Origin: Ulota crispa | Lineage: Eukaryota; Streptophyta; Bryopsida; Orthotrichales; Orthotrichaceae | Direction: 5' to 3' | DNA: 64,000 nt | Assembly (NCBI GenBank): GCA_963920765.1 | Contig: OY987245.1 | Location: forward strand, 7,456,727 to 7,520,726 | Shown: positions 18,921-64,000 of the stretch, piece by piece | Layout of the letters: each line of letters opens with the position of its first letter | Position numbering within the stretch: the first letter of the stretch is position 1 | Translations under genes and position numbers: made by a program | The notes under the pieces: model-generated | Seen by the model: the letters and a program-made list of their open reading frames with translations, nothing else | The model's database searches: none | What the model was told of the DNA's origin: nothing

Positions 18921-20003
18921 TCAGTTGGACCCACTTCCCTCAATACTAATGGGAAATGTTGGCATGAACTCTTTTGCCTTTGGCAATGGAACCTCTTGGA
19001 ACCATGGATGATTGAGAGCTTCATTCACATTGATACGCTTCAATGGATCATATGTAAGGAGTCGATTTAGTAAATCAAGGCCATTTAGAGTTATGGTAGG
19101 TTCTGCATTAAAAGCTGTGCCTGGGAAATGCTCACTTAGCTTATTAAACGGTTGGCTAATCATATTAGTTGGTACTCGGGCTAAATTACCAAAACTTGGC
19201 CAAATTCTCTCACTTGGTGTTCCAATAACTTTGCAGATCTTATGGATTTGATCAAGCCTTGAAAATCCTGGAAATAGAGGCCTTTTTAATAACAACTCCG
19301 CCGCAATGCATCCTAGAGACCACATGTCAATAGCAGTTGAATATTCTTTTGCTCCAAAAAGTTCTGGTGCTCTATACCACAATGTAACAATCTCATATGT
19401 ATGCTCCAAAGGTTGACTTCCAAACCAACGTGCCATTCCAAAATTGCATATCTTCAATTCTCCACAATTATTAAACAATAGATTTGATGGCTTCAAGTCC
19501 CTATGAACCACTCCTTTGTTGTGCAAAATTTTTACACCATCAAAAAGTTGCAGCATCAGACATTTCACTTCACTTTGGCTAAATGGGTGTACCATAGTCC
19601 TTTCCATAAGGCCTTGCAAATCATGGTCTATGTACTCCATGACCATGAACTTGGTGGAAGGCATGCTTTTGTTGACCGCAATTTCTTTGACATTAACAAT
19701 AGATGGATGATGTATTGATGATAATATTTGGTACTCCACCATTAAAGTAGTGTCTTCTTTCCCTCGTTCTATCTTGAATTTTTTCAAGGCCACTATTTCT
19801 CCGGTCTTCTTGTCACGAGCACGGAACACTACTCCATGTGACCCATGGCCTACCATATTCAACTTTTCAAATTCATGTACAGATCTACACTTTGCAAATA
19901 CAACACCCTCTGTATCTTTATCAACAATTATCAATGGGGTGTCCAAAAATTGCCCTTTTTCAATCTCTTCTTCTGTATCTGGAATCCCCCAAGACATTTC
20001 CAT
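18921..20003 (-). CDS. intronless CDKG/CDK11-like kinase, probably catalytically impaired
   Basis: A single 360-codon frame. It matches plant CDKG (CDK11/PITSLRE-type) from about residue 39 (CRSVHEFEKLN) to MPTFP near the end. Seen: glycine loop GHGSHG (52-57), VALKK with Lys74, alpha-C Glu90, HRDLKPSN (167-174), activation-loop Thr202, TLWYRAPE (207-214), DMWSLGC (226-232), LLTYDP (315-320). The DFG aspartate that binds magnesium is Asn187 (ICNFG). The PLTSLRE-type cyclin-binding helix is replaced by DTTLMVEYQ, and one leucine is missing after APEL. The long basic/acidic N-terminus of CDKG is reduced to about 40 residues. CDKG kinases normally have many introns, so this looks like a retrocopy. 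No poly(A) tract remains. An intact 1,083-nt frame argues for past or present selection. Activity as a kinase is doubtful; a scaffold role is possible. Confidence 0.85.
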   Translation of the reverse strand: MEMSWGIPDTEEEIEKGQFLDTPLIIVDKDTEGVVFAKCRSVHEFEKLNMVGHGSHGVVFRARDKKTGEIVALKKFKIERGKEDTTLMVEYQILSSIHHPSIVNVKEIAVNKSMPSTKFMVMEYIDHDLQGLMERTMVHPFSQSEVKCLMLQLFDGVKILHNKGVVHRDLKPSNLLFNNCGELKICNFGMARWFGSQPLEHTYEIVTLWYRAPELFGAKEYSTAIDMWSLGCIAAELLLKRPLFPGFSRLDQIHKICKVIGTPSERIWPSFGNLARVPTNMISQPFNKLSEHFPGTAFNAEPTITLNGLDLLNRLLTYDPLKRINVNEALNHPWFQEVPLPKAKEFMPTFPISIEGSGSN

Positions 20004-20918
20004 TTCTCTATTTATTTTCTCTATAGATGTACCAAATACGTTACTGTGGCAAGAGTTTTATGCTAGGAAGTCACAAGGTTTATTTTGCAAAAAGTTTGAT
20101 CATGAACATTAAATAATGAATAATAAATAATATATGAATGAAGAAGTTAAAGCTCTCAACATACATATATATATATGTGTATTATTTCATCATAAACATA
20201 ACATAATACTCACATGATAATAATGAACACCTTCCCTCTTACCTTTATAGTCATAGTCTACTTTACTTTTTCCTTTTACCTTTCTTTTATTTTTTTCTAA
20301 TTATACTACCGTGGTACTAAGGATAACTTTCAGAAACTTCCATGTTTATTGCCATGTAGACTTGTGTTGCTCAATACACCAGTGGTAAATAGCAGTTACT
20401 GAATTAGAGATTTGGCATCAAATAGAGGAGCGAAAGAAGAAGACACTCTATATGATGAGTGAAACTGATTACCTCACAGCTCTTCAAGAAGAAAAATAAA
20501 CCCAGGAATCATATAGTTAAAAAATTTATGGTTCCGAATCTATAGAAGTTACAAGAATCAATGCACGAACCTCTAAAAGTTGGACAAAGGCAAGTCCAAC
20601 CATCGATGAGGTACTTCTGCACTTTTCCTGCGGTAACTTACAAGGTGGTAGATGCTGTGAAGGAATTAACACGCCTCCCGTATTCATCGTTTTTAAAACC
20701 GAGCTGCAGATAATCAATCCCATCCCGACTGCTTTGACCACCAATATGTAATTACATGTGACTGTACACGCTTGAGAAAAATACTCACCGTCAAATTTTA
20801 TCAGTCGATACATTATCTAAAAACCGCCCATCAGATTACTAGTAGTCTAATTTTACCCGCTGCTTGATTGTTTGATTTGTTATCGTACTGGGAAAAACCT
20901 GGAAAGCAGAGCTAGTCC
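20004..20918. other. spacer between CDKG-like and GST genes
   Basis: The promoter side of the kinase and the 3' side of the GST, both on the minus strand. It is AT-rich near 20104-20330, including a short TATATA tract. A 95-codon minus frame at 20526-20813 has no recognisable motif and may be 3' UTR of the GST. No other gene is seen. Confidence 0.4.
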
Positions 20919-23503
20919 TCAGTTGACAGCTGCTGGTGTTTCACTAGATACAATACCAATTCTTTTGAAATAGTCATTTTCCTGCAAGCTCAAGCAAGAA
21001 TATATCAGACCCTTAGTGTACTGTACAAACGGCTTTGTGCTTCGCATATGATTCAGAGGCAGCTTATTGACATTATGAACGTAAATATCCAGAACTAAAC
21101 ATGAAGCTCATTGTAGCAATGTTAACACGAAGTACTTTTAACCATTACATAATAACGACATAATTTATTACAATCTCAAACACGGGTATTACCAGCATTC
21201 TTTTGTACAGATCGAGCAAGGTTTCGCGCTCAACCTTGGTGCTGGCATATCCCTCCACCTTGTCCATGGCCTGCTCAAAGTCACAGCCAATATTTTCAAC
21301 CAATTTCTATCGCTGGAGACACTTACGACGCAACTTAAAAGGCGGAAGACCAACATAACTGCTAATCCATTAAGCAGACTTAACATATGGACATGAGATT
21401 TAAAGTTGGAGCTTCTCATTCCGAGATAACTACTCCGTACATGTACTTGAACATAGTCAAGGTATGTTACCTCAAACCATTTTGAAAGTTTTGGTCGGTC
21501 AGCTGTGATGTTGTAGCCTCTAATTCCGCTAAATGCGATTTCAAATCTTTCGAGAAAAGGAACATACGCGATGTCCACCTGTTTGAAGAACAAAAATGAA
21601 TTTAACTCCAAAGAACGACAGAATAAAATTTATTATTGTGCCACACTTCAAACTGAAAGATTGAAGAAAAAAAGGTCAACTCACTAGTCCGAAATTTCCC
21701 AAAAGGAAAGGCCCTTCACTTGAGAATTTTGCAAGAGCGTTTTCCAGGTAATCGAATGCAGGAGCTGTACAAGCCAAAAATCGAAATATATATCAGAAGC
21801 AAGCAGGGCCGCTTCAATTCAATTACTATTCTCACCGACACCTGCAACTGTGCTGTGAACTTCGGGTGTGGGGATGCAGACAAGCAATCATACCATATTC
21901 TTGGATGCTACGGAGTAATTGACGTCAGATAACATACCTACAACTGCACCGATTTCATCTGGAGTTGAATCCTTCATGCTCAATCCTGTGAAGCCTAGTT
22001 TGTTAAAAGTATCAGTGTACTCTAAAAGCTCTGCAGCTGCCTGTTTCTGGCTCTCTTCCTGCTCACATTTCACGTCGACAAACATACCATCAAAAGTAAA
22101 CACTGCCAGATCAATAAAAGATCCATGAAACCTGCAGAAGTAAAGAACCAAGATAAGCTCAGGTTTCGAAGATTGCTTACAGTGGGTGCAAGTTTCGGCC
22201 CGTCAAAGTGTTCATCCAAGTAATTAAGCAAATCCATACTCTCACCAATGACTTTACCATCGTGCTCCAGGGCTGGAACCTGAACGCCCCAGCCACATAT
22301 TACGAAGTAAGCAATGAACCGTTCAAACAAGGGTGCGAGGTTCTTTGATACAAAAAACAATTTCCTGAATCCGAGATCACTGAACACCATCAAAAATGAA
22401 AAATGAAGAAACCAAGGATGCGATCCTCACTTTACCAGCGGGATAAACCTTTTCTTTATACCATACAGGCTTATCAGAGAGGCTAATTTCAACGCACTCT
22501 ATTTTATCCAGACCCTGCACCCATCAACCGAATGTGAAAGAAAATGTCGAGATTTTGTCAGACAAGAAATCAAGTGACTACATTGAATAACATTCTGTGG
22601 AATATACCAAAGTCACGATATATGAGGCATCTGATATCTTAAAACATGAAAATCAATGACAATCATCAAAATTAGAGTGCCGGTTGTGACCTAATTAAGC
22701 CCATGTCAGATATTGCATTGTTGAACATGATTCGCCTCACAGGAAAACACCGTGTCACAACTTTCCTACCGTATCAGAACTAATCAGGTCTTTTAAGAAT
22801 GAAGACAACTCAACCATATTCCACACCAATTTCGCTTTTACTACCAGGAAAGAGGATGCCAAAAATCACCTTGTATTTTACAGCAGCCCAAACTCGCTGT
22901 GCGTACGGGCATCTGGAGCTGAAGTACAGCCTACATTCAATCACCCGGAAAAATATCGAATTAACCAGACAAACAACAAACCACACGCATCCCAGAATAT
23001 TTCATGAAAATTCCACCTAATAAAGCAATCACAAATTGCCTATCTCATTTTTCCTCATCACAACTGCTGGCAAAACTTTACAGCTCACGAGTCTAAATGG
23101 AGCATGACAATCTAGTGAGGCACAAAAGAGGAGAAAAAGGCACACCTAGTTGTACCGTCGAAAAGTGCCGGGCTCGAGGATTTCGAATCAAGTATTCCAG
23201 AGTTCTCGAAGCTGCAATTCCCCAAAATGAGACATCAGAGAGCACACAACAGTCGTAAATTAAACTCATTCAACCATTTAGTGCCACTAGCAAGGTCATT
23301 ACAACAATAAAGTTCAAATTAACACGCTCTAAGATCTACCTGGATGCCACAATGCGCGTTGCAGACACAAACTTTCTTCCTGAGTTCGTGCTCAACCTCG
23401 AAACTCTGCCTGACAAGGATGAACAGCGTCTCCCAATCCTCTCAAAGGATGGCGAAATGCGAATGCTCGAAACATCTATACGTTGTATCCTGCTTCGACA
23501 CAT
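20919..23503 (-). CDS. GSTL: lambda-class glutathione transferase, organelle-targeted
   Basis: Ten exons read on the minus strand: 23340-23503, 23146-23211, 22870-22930, 22431-22514, 22181-22279, 21938-22058, 21685-21764, 21471-21578, 21193-21270, 20919-20981. They sum to 924 nt, 307 aa. Residues 1 to about 60 are Arg/Ser-rich with almost no acidic residues, as in plastid or mitochondrial transit peptides. The thioredoxin-like domain begins at DGTTRLYFSSRCPYAQRVW; Cys84 is the lambda-class catalytic cysteine. Then come KPVWYKEKVYP, the cis-proline strand KVPALEHDG and GESMDLLNYLDEHFDGP. The helical domain holds LLEYTDTFNK, APAFDYLENAL, VDIAYVPFLERF and TADRPKLSKWFE. Lambda GSTs reduce glutathionylated small molecules such as flavonols rather than conjugating them. 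An upstream in-frame ATG at 23533 would add ten residues. The start codon lies at the edge of a triplicated segment. Confidence 0.93.
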
Positions 23504-24333
23504 CACAGCCAATGAAATTATGTATTCCAACACATAGTTGACAGCATCCTCTGTTCACTTTTCTAAATAATAAAGTCCTCCATAAATAAGAAAATCAATA
23601 ATACCGCGATCTCGGCAAGCCATCAGTCCTTTAATAAACACAATATGTATAACTAATCACCACTTCAAATCAATTTGTACATCCTATTGCTACGATTCTG
23701 AAACATGTTTCAAATTTATTCCTTACACCTGCAAGCTTCAGCATCAGCGAAGAAATTCCGTTATATCAATCTCATCACAGCCAATGAAATTATGTATTCC
23801 AACATATATCCTCAGTGTCGGCAACATCCTCTGTTCACTTTTCTAAACTAATATATTCCTCCATAAATAAATAAAATCAATAGTACCGCGATCTCGACAA
23901 GCTATCAGTTCTTTAATAAGCACAATATGAATAACAACTCACCACTTCAAATCAATTTGTACATGCTATTGCTACGACTCTGAAACATGTTTCAAATTAA
24001 TTCCTTACACCTGCAAGCTTCAGCATCAGCGAGGATATTCCATTCTATCAATCTCATCACAGCCAATGAAATTATGTATTCCAGCACATATCCTCAGTGT
24101 CAGCAACATCCTCTGTTCACTTTTCTAAACTAATAAAGCGCTCCATAAAATAATAATCAATAGTACCGCGATCTCGGCAAGCCATCAGTCCTTTAATAAG
24201 CATAATATGATTAACAACTCACCACTTCATATCAATTTGTACATTCTATTGCTACGACTCTAAACGTAACTCAAACTAATTCCTTACACCTGCAAGCTTC
24301 AGCATCAGCAGAGATATTCCGTACTATCAATCT
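23501..24333. repeat. three tandem ~275-bp copies upstream of the GST
   Basis: Units start at 23501, 23773 and 24055 with CATCACAGCCAATGAAATTA and run to about 24333. Lengths are 272, 282 and 279 bp. Each includes CACCTGCAAGCTTCAGCATCAGC near its end. The unit boundary falls at the GST start codon, so copies 2 and 3 also begin with an ATG on the minus strand but run into a stop within a few codons. They probably form the promoter or leader. Confidence 0.9.
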
Positions 24334-33339: not shown

Positions 33340-34065
33340 CTTCTAAAAGATTCATTTTTTTTGAAAACTTCTTTTATTTTTGAAAACTTCAAAAAAATTT
33401 AATGAGGTCCAAAAAGGTTTTAGAAAGATTTCAAAAACAAACCTAAACTATTGTGATAGTTTTTTTGAAAGTATTTTGATGATTTACAAAAAGATTCCTA
33501 AAGGATTCTAATTCAGTCTAAGAGATTCTATTTCTATAAGTATTTTGAAGTACTTTAACAAATTCCATAAAGATTTTAAAAAGATTCTCAAAGATTCCAA
33601 AAAGGTTCTTGAAAATTCTTAGAGATTTTCAAAGATTTTTTGAATTTCAAAAAGGATTCTCAAAAGATTCCCAAAGATTCTCAAAGATTCTCAATTGTTC
33701 TCAAACATTCTCAAAGATTCCAAAATACTTAAAAAGATTCTCAAAGATTTCAAATGATTCTCAAAGATTTCAAATGATTCTCAAAGATTTCTAAAAGATT
33801 CTCAAAGATTCTCAAACATTCTCAATTGTTCTCAAAGATTCTCTAAGATTCCAAAAAAACTTGAAAAGATTTCGAAAGATTTTCAAAGATTCATGAAGAT
33901 TCCTAAAAGATTCTCAAAGATTCTAAAATCTCAAAAAGATTCTTAAATATTCTTAAAAATCATGAAAAGATTCTCAATGATTCCTAAAAGATTCTTGACA
34001 ATTCTTAAAGATTCACAAAAAATTCCCAAAAGATCTTCAAAAGATTCCAAAATTTCTGTTGATTT
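33340..34065. repeat. degenerate AAAGATTCTC-type short-unit array
   Basis: Dozens of imperfect 9-12-bp units of the form CTCAAAGATT, with interspersed CTCAATTGTT and CCAAAAGATT variants. The array lies near the right end of the CACTA element. Confidence 0.85.
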
Positions 34066-41014: not shown

Positions 41015-41465
41015 AAGCATGGGAATAAGAGGAGCACGTGGATAAGGAGAGCACGGGGATAAGGGGGCACGGGGATAAGGAGAGCACGGGGATAAGGGGG
41101 CACGGGGATAAGGAGGGCACGAGGATAAGAGGGACACATGGGTAAGGGGCATAGGGATAAAGGGCATGGAGATAAGAGGGCATGTGGATAGGAGGCAGAT
41201 GGATAAGAAGGGCAGAGGACTAAGAGGGACACAAGGATAGGGGGGGCAGCGAGTAAGGGGGCAAGGGGCATGGAGATAAGATGGCATGTGAATAGGAGGC
41301 ACATGGATAAGAGGGACATAGAACTAAGAGGGGCACGAGGATAAGGGGGCAGCGGGATAGAAGGCACAAAGATAGGGGCACGAAGATAGGAGGCATGGGG
41401 ATAGGGGGTAGTGGAATAGGAGGCACGGAGATAGGGGACACGAGGATAGGAGGCATGTGCCATAA
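41015..41465. repeat. G-rich minisatellite
   Basis: Imperfect 13-17-bp units built on GGGGATAAGGGGGCAC and GATAGGAGGCAC run for about 450 bp with strong purine bias on the plus strand. The minus-strand open frames here (Pro/Ser/Cys-rich, up to 197 codons) are only translations of the repeat. Confidence 0.9.
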
Positions 41466-57561: not shown

Positions 57562-57927
57562 TTTATTGTTAGTCTCCATGACTGGAAACCGAATTAATGG
57601 AAGCTGTGGTGATTGATACGTTTCGGGATGTTAGAGCCATTACGAACCTGGCGTCGATCGGTGATGGAGCTAAATATGGCGGCCGATTCGAGTGACGTGA
57701 AGTGAACATCGAGAGCGTGGCTAAAGAATAGCAAACTCCGGTGGTTTATTGTTAGTCTCCCTGACTGGAAACTGAATCAATGAGAGCTGTAGTGATTGAT
57801 ACGTTTCGGGAAGTTATAAGCATTACGAACCTGGCGTTGATCGGCGTTGGAGCTGAACATGGCGGCCGATTCGAGTGACGTGAAGTGAACATCGAGAGCG
57901 TGTCTAAAGAGTAGCAAACTCCGGTGG
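57562..57927. repeat. 183-bp tandem duplication before the GRDP gene
   Basis: TTTATTGTTAGTCTCC at 57562 and 57745 begins two copies. Both continue through GATTGATACGTTTCGGGA, ATTACGAACCTGGCGT, GGCGGCCGATTCGAGTGACG and end GCAAACTCCGGTGG. The second copy ends at the GRDP start codon. Confidence 0.92.
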
Positions 57928-57929
57928 AA

Positions 57930-60900
57930 ATGACGATGGATGAGGAGTTGCGCGTTTCTTTGGCGAAAGAGTGGAGAAGAGCACAAGCTATCACGTTCAC
58001 CATCCCTAACCTCGTCGCTGCCGCCAAGCAGCAGCTTCGTTTCCTCGCTCGCGTGAATCAACACCCCGAGCTCACACAAATAGGACCTGTGCTTGATAGC
58101 GCCATTCGCAGGTATTGATAGATCTCGATCGTTATACCAAATCAGGTTTGTTGCGTCGTTTCTGAGGTGTATTTTACTGACATCGGTTGTTCAACAGATA
58201 CGAAGAGTGCTGGCTTCCATTGCTCGCAAGTCAGGAGGATGGCGGAAGTGCTCTCGTTCCGCCGCTGGATTGCGCTTGGATTTGGCACTGTCACCGCCTT
58301 AATCCCGTAAGTGAACTGACGCTCCATCGCTTGTCCTGAATTTTTTTTGAGGATTTTTCTCTGATATGCTACAGTTGCACAGATGCGGTACGCAGAGGAT
58401 TGCACGGCGGTGTACGGGGAAGTGTTAGCCGCCGCAGTGCCAGAAGCGCGGTTCATGGTGGCCGCTACGAAGAACACCGTGCAGCTATGGCAGAAGCTGT
58501 ACCCGACCGTGCCCTATCATCATAATGGAGTCTCCAGCTTCGGACGGACGGGGAACACAAGCCGACGACGCATTAGTTACAATCTTGTGGAAGCCGTTCT
58601 GAGGCAGAGCTCGTTTTACTACCAGGTGAGCGCTCGCTCGCATTCATCGCAAACCTGAGTACCGCTTCTTTCTGCCTCTCTTCCCATGTCCGTAGCACCG
58701 ATTTCTAATTCAGCATCAATTTTAATGTTTCTAAACGTTGTTCAAGTGTTATATGTGTACTTTAAGCTTAAGAACGGAGTCTTTAGAAACAAAATCGGGA
58801 AAGGTAGTGTACGGCAGTCAAAAACGCAGTAAAAAAGATTAGTATGAGAACTTGCTCGCTCTCATCGCAACATCAATTTTCTGCATCCGTAAACATTCTC
58901 GTTCTCCGGTTATTAATTCAGGAGCACATTGAACGTTTTGTAATTGTGTTTCAAGCTTTGTATAAGTAGTTGCGTCTTATGATCAGAGCACTTAACGACA
59001 AAGTTCAAAGAACGCCGTGCAAGAAACGCAATCGGAAAATTGTGAGAAAACGGATTAGGTTCGTTTGCCAGTGACAAGAAGTGTTGCGGCCCGTTTTGTG
59101 TTGCTATTTGACGGACGTGCACATGCTTAAATTGTAGGTTTCCGAGCTCCATGTTCGGGAGGAGTCCTTTCTCCATGCAGCTGAGCTCCGGTACAAAGCT
59201 TTTCTCCACCTGGCCGCGAAGTCGAAAGGGAAGCTCTTCTTAGTCCCGACCTACGACATCGATTTGATGTGGCACGCGCATCAATTGGACGTAACGGCGT
59301 ACCGAATCGACACACTGCAAATCCTCGGGAAACTGCTGGATCATGACGACACAGGCACAGAGTCGAAGCTGAGCCTCTGTTTTCAAGAAACGAAGCAGCT
59401 CTGGGAGGAGACCTACAGCCTTCCGTTCGAGAAAGCCGGTGCAATGTATCGAGGCGAGGCGCCGACGTTGCTGGAGCTCACGTCTCCAATAGACTTGCGT
59501 CAATATGGAAACAAGACTTCCAGCATTTACAAGCGAGAGCAGGAAGCGCAATACAGTAACCTAACAGCGCGAGAGTCCATGCAGCTTTATTTGAACATTT
59601 TAGGAGCTAAGAATGTCAAAAGCGGTTCTCGCGTCTTTGTCCGATTGAAGGGAATGAAGAACTGCGGTAATTTTGAGCTTAATACAACCGAAGTGGAAGC
59701 GGAGCCACCGTGGTGGAAACAATCGGTGCAGTGGAGGTTGACGTTGGCGAAGTCCGTGGAAGGTATCATTCTGGAGCTGAGAATGCGCAAGTCGTGTCTG
59801 GGGTTGAAGAAGAAGTCTACAATTCTCGGCGAGGTGCACGTTCCTTTTCATATGCTTCTGGCATCGCCGACTCTGTCTGCTCACGATTGGTTGCCGCTCC
59901 ATAATGATGATCAAATCTGGGACTTGCACAAGAAGCCTCCTGCTCTCGAGATTGCCGCTTCTGTTGCTCCTCCTGTTCCTGCGCCTTATCTTTTGCGAGC
60001 TATCAATGCCAAGACCACGGATGATGACTTTCGGGAGGTGCTGGAACGACGGAGTCACACGCAAACGGGCCGCTGGTTGACGAGAACTGTTTTGGATCAC
60101 CGCGGGACCGCCGTTTATACCGTGCGCATCCGGTATACCTTCAATTGATGCCTCCTTTGAAACCTTTGCTGCATGTTTCCTGGAAAAGGAATTATTCCTC
60201 TTGTAAAACATTCTGATTGTGTCCTTCGCTGTCTCACTGCTTCTTCTTTTTCGAAATTCAAATTTTCAAATTTTGTTCGTCAGCTGAAATTAGAGTTACA
60301 AAAGACCTAAATATGTTAAAAATCGTTCAACTTGTTGTTGGATTAGAAACTGGAGACCGAGAATGTTCCTGCATGTCGTAACGAAGTTTTGCTGTCTTGA
60401 TTCGATTTTTTGTTATCTATTGTTAGCACGTCTCTGAAATGCAGAGTGTTCCCCGAGCTAAATTTCGGTAGTCACCGATTGCGACTGATTGTTTGCAGGA
60501 AGTTGAAAGGCTCCAGAAGAGCAATCCCAGTGGCCGAGAATGAGAGAGTTGTGGATGTTTACCGACCGGAGCAGGATGGAAATCCCGGAGATCCTCGTAA
60601 GAAGCTTTGTTCTTAACTTGATTATCATCGTCGTGAGGTTCCAATTGAGGTGTTCTTGTGCAACGCTTGCTCTATCCAGGCTTCTAATAAGTGTTCTCCT
60701 TGCAGTTACGCTTGCCGCATCGGCGATGCAGCTGATGGACTCAAAGGATCGGATAGAGAATGCTACGCTGCAAAGACAGTGGACATTGTTTGAACCGAGC
60801 ATCATCTTCACGGTGAAGAAGAACCGCGACCCTGAAATGGACGAATTCCCTGAGCTGACGGTGGCGGGGAGTGTGGGCTACCCCGTGGGGTTGATTTCCG

Positions 60901-61719
60901 GGCGGTGGCTGCAGTATCAAGTTGAGGACAGCCAACCTGAAGACGAGCGAGGATTTGTTACTGTCGTTCGCTACACTCCCGAGTGTCCCACGGGCAAAGC
61001 TACGGCCCTCTTCAACTGGATGTCTGCTGCCATGGAGGTACAAATCAGCTCGTTCCTATCCACAATGTTTTGCAAGTTTCTTTTTCTTAGAGCATTTTGA
61101 TGAAGAAGCGCTTGGTTGAGGGCTGTGTCTTGATATGTGAGAGCCTCTCTGCAGGTAACTCCAGGAGAGAATGCAACATTTGTGCTGCTCTTATCGACTG
61201 TCACCACCTTAGCTGTTCACGACTTACTTGGCACGATGAGCAGTAAACCTACAAAGGTGGTCAAGAAAACGATGCTGCCTAATCAAGAGGAATGGGGTAT
61301 ACTTGCAACTCTTTACCTATATATGTCTTCGCTTCAGGCTTAATTCATGCACATCTCAGTTTTTGTCCATCTGGTCAAGGAGACCACCACATGCTTAAGC
61401 AACGTTGATTGCACACTCTGTCCATTTCCATTATATTGCCTTTTGGTTGTCATCAACAAAAATCTCCTAAAAAAACCGCTTTCGTTCTAGAACTCAACAT
61501 GTGAGAGATGTTTGTGCAGGAGCTGTAAACTTTGAAAATGGAACTCAAGGCCAAGTTGAGCTTTGTCGCTCAAGTTCGGCCAACCGATTCTGGTGGACCA
61601 TGAATGCTCAAATCTTTGCACAGGAAATTTACGGTACCGCACCAGCTGATTGTGGAGGTGCGGGCGCATGCGGAGGAGGAGCGAGTACAGCTGGCGGAAG
61701 TGACGGTAGCAGTGGTTGA
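57930..61719 (+). CDS. glycine-rich domain protein (GRDP, DUF1399 family)
   Basis: Eight exons: 57930-58111, 58198-58306, 58383-58625, 59138-60132, 60499-60596, 60706-61037, 61155-61296, 61520-61719. They sum to 2,301 nt, 766 aa. Family signatures: CAWIWHCHRLNP (86-97) and the second repeat VPTYDIDLMWHAHQL (214-228), which together define the DUF1399 region; WEETYSLPFEKAGAMYRG; a C2-like segment with ILGEVHVPFHMLL; PPVPAPYLLRAI; and a later GFVTVVRYTPECPTGKATALF domain. The tail is glycine-rich (ADCGGAGACGGGAS). Arabidopsis GRDPs affect growth, auxin and stress responses and may bind RNA; the molecular role is unclear. The protein is likely cytosolic or nuclear, with no signal peptide seen. 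Retaining intron 4 would truncate it five residues after exon 4 (RYTFN-stop). Confidence 0.93.
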
Positions 61720-63415: not shown

Positions 63416-63522
63416 TCAATTTGATACCACTTTAGCAAGATCGGCAAAGACTTGGCCTCGGTGCTCAAAATTTTTGAACTCGTCAAAGCTGGCACAGCCA
63501 GGACTCAACACAACAACATCTC
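63416..63522 (-). CDS. murD: MurD (UDP-MurNAc-Ala-D-Glu ligase), last exon, partial
   Basis: On the minus strand, after a TTGCAG acceptor at 63523-63528, 107 nt encode 34 residues plus TGA. The peptide has [12 protein letters not shown] then [13 protein letters not shown], which is the highly characteristic C-terminal motif of MurD (E. coli form LLSPACASLDQFKNFEQRG). MurD adds D-glutamate to UDP-MurNAc-L-alanine in peptidoglycan synthesis. In mosses and other non-seed plants nuclear mur genes act in plastids and are needed for normal plastid division. The family alanine in SPAC is Gly here. Upstream exons and any transit peptide lie beyond the right edge; 63523-64000 appears to be intron. The reading frame continues from a split Gly codon. 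Confidence 0.87.
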
Positions 63523-64000
63523 CTGCAAACATCAGGTCAACACAATTGAATCAATAACTACTGTAGCCCTATGTAAGAATTTGTGGGCAGTTGACAATAG
63601 AGGACAAATTAACATAAAAGTCAGGTTTGCATTTGTCCAGACGAGCCTTGGAGACACAACATGTAAACGCATTGTGATTGGTCAAAATTTAGAGAGTGAA
63701 GAGCTTTACAATGTATAGATGATCATGAAGAAAGAATCTCACTAACGGATAATAAAATGACTTGGATGCAGACAAGTTCATTCAAGACTAGTTTGTGATT
63801 AAAATGTCTTGTTGTCTTGGCCCATGGACTTCAAATAGTTATCTCTCGGCCTCAACTCTTTGCTTGTACTAAAATTGATTTGAGAAGTGTAAACCGACCC
63901 TTAAATTCATTACAAGTAAAACAAAACAAATACAATACTTTATAGGGGAAAAAATTACAAATAGGGGCACAAAAATGAAAAATATTACAGATAGGGGCAC
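63523..64000. other. probable MurD intron (to window edge)
   Basis: AT-rich, with no further MurD-like coding found on the minus strand. The last 60 bp contain two copies of an ATAGGGGCAC-ending unit. Confidence 0.45.

Follow-up and report, generated by a model that had tools for sequence, protein, structure and literature searches.

The short exon at the right-hand end of the window, by which we mean the whole 64,000-nucleotide stretch of DNA analysed here (G000:C4:7456727-7520726), raises two questions: whether it belongs to a nuclear gene for the peptidoglycan enzyme MurD, and what such a gene would say about the plastid. The exon lies at 63416..63522 on the minus strand and has 107 bp encoding 35 residues plus a TGA stop, the first codon being split by the intron. 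A canonical acceptor (gatgtttgcag) precedes it, with 63523 as the last intron base, and this intron fills the rest of the window on the same strand (63523..64000), extending to 64369 on the continued scale for a full length of 847 bp. The 35-residue peptide matches positions 410-440 of the 441 in the NCBIfam murD model (TIGR01087, E 3.5e-12), and the 11 distinct PDB sequences that it retrieved at E up to 10 are all named MurD (best 3.7e-9). It has one match in the whole genome (274.8 Mb, 157 contigs searched). The open frame of this exon alone found no match in Pfam, because in the whole protein Mur_ligase_C matches only up to residue 493, 8 residues into the exon.

A MurD profile search of the genome revealed more pieces, likewise on the minus strand, immediately beyond the right-hand end of the window, and the gene was assembled in a 30 kb region from the reading frames and the DNA, with splice sites set by reading frame, motifs and homology. 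The contig piece L002, which overlaps the window, agrees at every position with the window's last 2000 bases, and coordinates past 64000 continue the window scale (L002 position + 62000). The gene comprises 14 collinear exons that join in frame, from 70439 to 63416, totalling 1563 bp including the stop, or 520 codons with no internal stop. Its 13 introns range from 175 to 847 bp, 12 of them GT-AG and one, after exon 6, GC-AG. Of the gene, the window contains no more than exon 14 and a portion of intron 13. The upstream exons that the earlier note expected in the flanking contig were found there, all 13 beyond the window end, including exon 13 (64490-64370), exon 5 with the P-loop (68687-68571) and exon 1 with the ATG (70439-70397), all on the minus strand. 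For the junction between exons 3 and 4, a microexon model (7-bp exon, 35-bp intron) and a model using a weak donor (gtctgc following a T, giving 527 aa) were dropped in favour of a phase-0 junction with better sites. The murD score went from 307.5 bits in the 527-aa model to 311.8 in the 14-exon, 520-aa model; the PDB search with the whole protein, the 44-row alignment, the two MurD trees and the searches of the G001 and Acidobacteria phyla described below are based on the former.

The GTNGK motif and the transit peptide expected upstream by the earlier note are both represented, the motif in the assembled gene and the transit peptide by an N-terminus that looks like one by eye. The first ~40 residues, ahead of the bacterial start, are rich in Ser and Arg, with acidic residues absent before position 27, and this N-terminal segment probably directs import of the precursor into the plastid. 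Taken together, TIGR01087, the PDB matches and the whole-gene model confirm the initial reading of 63416..63522 as the terminal exon of a nuclear, spliced MurD gene.

Two MITE-like inverted-repeat elements are located in the introns. The one in intron 13, at 63939-64276 (L002 1939-2276; 63939..64000 in the window), has arms of 97 nt that are 89% complementary, and the one in intron 9, at 65842-66281 (L002 3842-4281), has arms of 55 nt at 84%. Both have TTACAAATAGGGGCA-like ends; allowing at most one mismatch, the window contains two copies of this end motif, where 0.01 would be expected. Tandem arrays were found at 23501-24333 (282 bp x 3), 33580-34051 (10 bp x 46, AAAGATTCTC), 41016-41457 (GCACGGGGATAAG-type unit) and 57562-57927 (183 bp x 2). 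The window also holds a protein kinase in a single 378-aa frame at 18924-20057 on the minus strand (Pfam Pkinase, 3.6e-62), CDK-like by eye, and a glycine-rich domain protein (GRDP) gene at 59138-61097 on the plus strand, with PF07173 and PF25334 at 59138-60145 and PF25335 at 60507-61097. Further open frames indicate that the GRDP gene may extend to about 62.2 kb; it stands tail to tail with MurD.

The spliced protein scores well above the equivalog cut-off of TIGR01087 (211.95 bits), over profile positions 2-440 of 441, while the runner-up family reaches 99 bits. Three Pfam domains follow in order, each above its gathering score: PF21799 (MurD-like_N, 52-142), PF08245 (Mur_ligase_M, 163-348) and PF02875 (Mur_ligase_C, 373-493). 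Against the PDB, the 527-aa model has its best match in 7sir (2.1e-50), and it also matches 2jff (3.7e-48), which we take to be E. coli MurD. An alignment of the 527-aa model with 44 bacterial rows has 50 columns with at least 85% conservation among the bacteria and a residue, not a gap, in the plant, and in all 50 the plant carries the bacterial consensus. This count is biased upward, the bacterial loci having been picked by plant peptide patterns including FDEFKNFE, which favours C-terminal columns. The conserved motifs TG.NGK.T, GN.G, E.SS.Q.E, DH..R, Y...K, NDSK.T, GG..K and the C-terminal SP motif are all present.

Nine core enzymes of the pathway besides MurD were searched for in the genome; eight gave clear pieces by profile matches and Ddl a weak one. 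These genes are known here as exon pieces, MurC by one exon (C6:9011350-9011529). MurA is at C1:18511195-18514329, MurB at C7:14630161-14632943, MurE at C6:10538267-10538914, MurF at C1:16559426-16562738, MraY at C7:7072007-7073843 and MurG at C5:13615551-13617135. The class A PBP (C2:31130083-31135049) is represented by eight pieces of the transglycosylase and transpeptidase parts, collinear on a single strand over less than 5 kb, and both halves have their catalytic motifs (EDRRFFEHRG, GGSTITQQ, RPPGSTFKP, SLN and AGKTGTSDGHRDAWFAGF, with AGKTGT). The weak Ddl candidate consists of four pieces at C2:4947356-4952316 (E 3.6e-4 to 0.04); the strongest genome matches of the Ddl model (E down to 3.7e-7) fall at other places and look like other ATP-grasp enzymes.

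Some side observations were made on these genes. A second, weak MurG-like match is present at G000:C3:12118972-12119384 on the minus strand (model positions 242-281 at E 3.9e-4 and 286-330 at E 0.64), possibly a paralogue or another glycosyltransferase. The MurE frame (L005 3-1046) has a long acidic N-terminal stretch with Asp/Glu runs, resembling the acidic region that PMC9434261 describes in streptophyte MurE. Ahead of the MurF match, the frame with the N-terminal half of MurF (L008 784-2028) contains about 9 copies of a 7-residue repeat (VSENHGQ, VLKNHVQ etc.), perhaps a young tandem repeat in a leader or untranslated region.

Could the protein be another enzyme of the Mur fold, such as folylpolyglutamate synthase, MurC, MurE, MurF or cyanophycin synthetase? 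These share the P-loop and the central domain with MurD, and the MurC and MurE models do reach 81-82 bits against the spliced protein. However, the MurD model passes its equivalog cut-off at 311.8 bits and was never outscored by the folC or murC/E/F models, every PDB sequence matched by the exon 14 peptide is a MurD, and MurC, MurE, MurF and a folC-like exon sit elsewhere in the genome, which leaves this explanation with a negligible probability. Folylpolyglutamate synthase, the competing family mentioned by the earlier note, is excluded: the folC-like exon is at a separate place, on contig C8, and folC is absent from the 20 families that match the 527-aa protein at E up to 1e-3. An equally far-fetched explanation is that exon 14 is a piece of bacterial murD left by contamination or recent insertion. 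Bacterial relatives show up to 55% identity with the plant MurD, and in the MAG locus L016, 24 of 27 residues are identical over VVVLSP...FADL. Nevertheless, the gene carries 13 spliceosomal introns, which a misassembled bacterial contig would lack, whereas the 25 bacterial MurD loci examined are single-frame matches without stops; moreover, it sits on a 25.7-Mb contig beside the GRDP gene, about 2.3 kb away. The claim that an intron before the C-terminal motif argues against bacterial contamination is thus borne out. We consider it very probable, from sequence evidence, that an intact nuclear MurD gene, coding for a plastid-targeted protein of a non-flowering streptophyte, has its 3' exon at 63416-63522. 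At 275 Mb the genome is much smaller than conifer genomes are, which makes a seedless plant or a streptophyte alga the most likely source.

What this MurD says about plastid peptidoglycan depends on the other genes. According to PMC4815162, the complete pathway including PBP is present in mosses and Selaginella and, PBP excepted, in several vascular plants; Arabidopsis retains only MurE, MraY, MurG and Ddl. PMC12681378 reports potentially all ten genes in Marchantia, Klebsormidium, Selaginella and the conifer Thuja, and nine genes in Citrus and Asparagus, where the bifunctional PBP is absent. Since Citrus and Asparagus carry nine Mur genes without this PBP, MurD alone is not diagnostic and the PBP serves better as a marker. 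The proposal that MurD implies plastid peptidoglycan therefore stands as far as the pathway goes, which is supported by the PBP and the gene set, and falls as a deduction from MurD alone. A different fate for the gene would be retention with a new role and without peptidoglycan, as has been suggested for flowering-plant MurE, whose knockouts in Arabidopsis and maize point to a part in plastid gene expression and not in division (PMC9434261). The weak Ddl would fit such a loss, but eight of the nine other core enzymes are clear, among them a PBP with its catalytic motifs, and MurD retains 50 of 50 conserved columns (pattern-selected bacterial rows). We regard re-purposing as quite unlikely, and plastid peptidoglycan as supported by the enzyme set including the PBP.

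Working as an enzyme of this pathway, the protein would be the UDP-MurNAc-L-alanine:D-glutamate ligase, made as a precursor and imported into the plastid, where it would use ATP to add D-glutamate onto UDP-MurNAc-L-Ala, between the MurC and MurE steps. The likely product of the pathway is a thin peptidoglycan layer, which may function in the division of plastids, a role reported in the moss Physcomitrium, since clear pieces of eight other enzymes and a weak Ddl are found in the genome. This genome joins the plant genomes whose set of plastid peptidoglycan genes is nearly or fully complete, here with the bifunctional PBP that flowering plants are reported to lack.

The earlier note had also drawn attention to an Ala-to-Gly change in the SPAC motif, which probably was not made in the plant. 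Among the 25 best MurD loci of the closest bacterial phylum, SPGCAS is present in 13, SPACAS in 9 and SPAGAS in 2, with no pattern found in 1, and the 13 SPGCAS loci (L099-L111) are the 13 best-scoring of the 25. A broader set of 50 pattern-selected bacterial loci has SPACAS in 15, SPGCAS in 7 and other letters in 18, no pattern being found in 10. Because many of the closest bacterial MurDs have SPGCAS, the Gly was probably inherited and would be ancestral rather than derived; the idea of a functional oddity was rejected on these counts.

Regarding the bacterial donor, most plant Mur enzymes are described as not cyanobacterial in PMC8227023 and PMC6946739, and moss MurD and MurF as closest to the Fibrobacteres-Chlorobi-Bacteroidetes (FCB) group in PMC9434261. 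Our comparison used bacterial loci from searches with the plant sequence, as the sole plant row, in a sample without Gemmatimonadota, Bacteroidota, Chlorobiota and cyanobacteria; the best named MurD relatives in it are four 'Proteobacteria' MAGs (L016-L019) with 44-47% identity. In a tree built from the plant and 44 of the 50 pattern-selected loci, after removal of the six that scored below 85 bits, plant MurD groups with these four at 100/99. In the phylum of the 'Proteobacteria' MAG G001, 372 of 377 genomes have a MurD match at E up to 1e-5, the top one with 387 bits and 55% identity; other identity figures against MurD of this phylum are 53.6% over 435 aligned positions and 49.9% by BLASTP. 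Two control phyla were searched at E up to 1e-30. That of an Acidobacteria MAG has matches in 287 of 297 genomes (top 232 bits, 40%; highest identity among the matches listed 43%, at 202 bits), and that of a Neomarinimicrobiota MAG, through which alone the published FCB origin is compared here, in 103 of 120 (top 203 bits, 36%). A quick tree of the plant, the 25 best G001-phylum loci and 19 loci hand-picked from the earlier 50 places the plant inside a 26-row clade of the G001 phylum (SH-aLRT 99, no bootstrap).

The other enzymes were compared within the bacterial loci collected by these searches, which contain hardly any MurA, MurB or PBP. MurF behaves similarly to MurD: its pieces have a top match of 53% in the G001 phylum and 41% outside, and in a tree of the plant and 36 of these loci (support 99) the plant branches off at an unresolved split where the clade of that phylum begins. 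The G001 phylum is not favoured for MurE (top match 142 bits outside and 141 inside) or for MraY, whose top matches are in Neomarinimicrobiota-group and Acidobacteria loci, and the MurC piece, of only 75 residues, is too short to place (67 vs 65 bits). The NCBI label 'Proteobacteria' and genomes of up to 13.4 Mb suggest that the G001 phylum is Myxococcota. MurD of this phylum gave the highest score found and shares the SPGCASFD motif with the plant protein, although the bacterial gene is intronless and the plant gene has introns. Three MAG loci have the order murF-mraY-murD-ftsW-murC (names by eye), whereas the plant MurD, MurF and MraY are on different contigs.

One tentative scenario, which we hold to be somewhat less probable than its negation, is that land plants obtained their plastid MurD and MurF jointly from a single large-genome bacterial phylum, presumably Myxococcota, where murF, mraY and murD are neighbours, with MurE and MraY coming from elsewhere. 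As MurF is reported as cyanobacterial in the glaucophyte Cyanophora (PMC6704402), such a joint donor could hold for the green line only. If true, the plastid wall would be a patchwork traceable to particular donors, contrary to the published FCB placement of moss MurD and MurF, and the origin of the non-cyanobacterial plant Mur enzymes could be tested gene by gene. The joint donor may be new to the literature: among the papers listed in a literature search that did not cover Sato and Takano 2017, the main paper on the subject, the one containing the word myxobacteria was PMC1586193, on rooting the tree of life.

Compared with bacterial MurD (TIGR01087; PDB entries such as 2jff), the plant protein has the same three domains, P-loop and conserved columns, and the alignment is nearly full-length. 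It differs by the introns, the transit-peptide-like N-terminus and two inserts relative to most of 11 bacterial rows aligned, one of 11 residues after position 90 and another of ~6 in GGLAKARAGGKG. Physcomitrium patens and other non-flowering plants likewise have a nuclear bacterial-type MurD and a Mur set with class A PBP, as stated in PMC4815162, PMC12681378 and PMC9434261. The MurD described here is an ordinary, well-formed member of a known family, a real finding of a kind already known from these plants.
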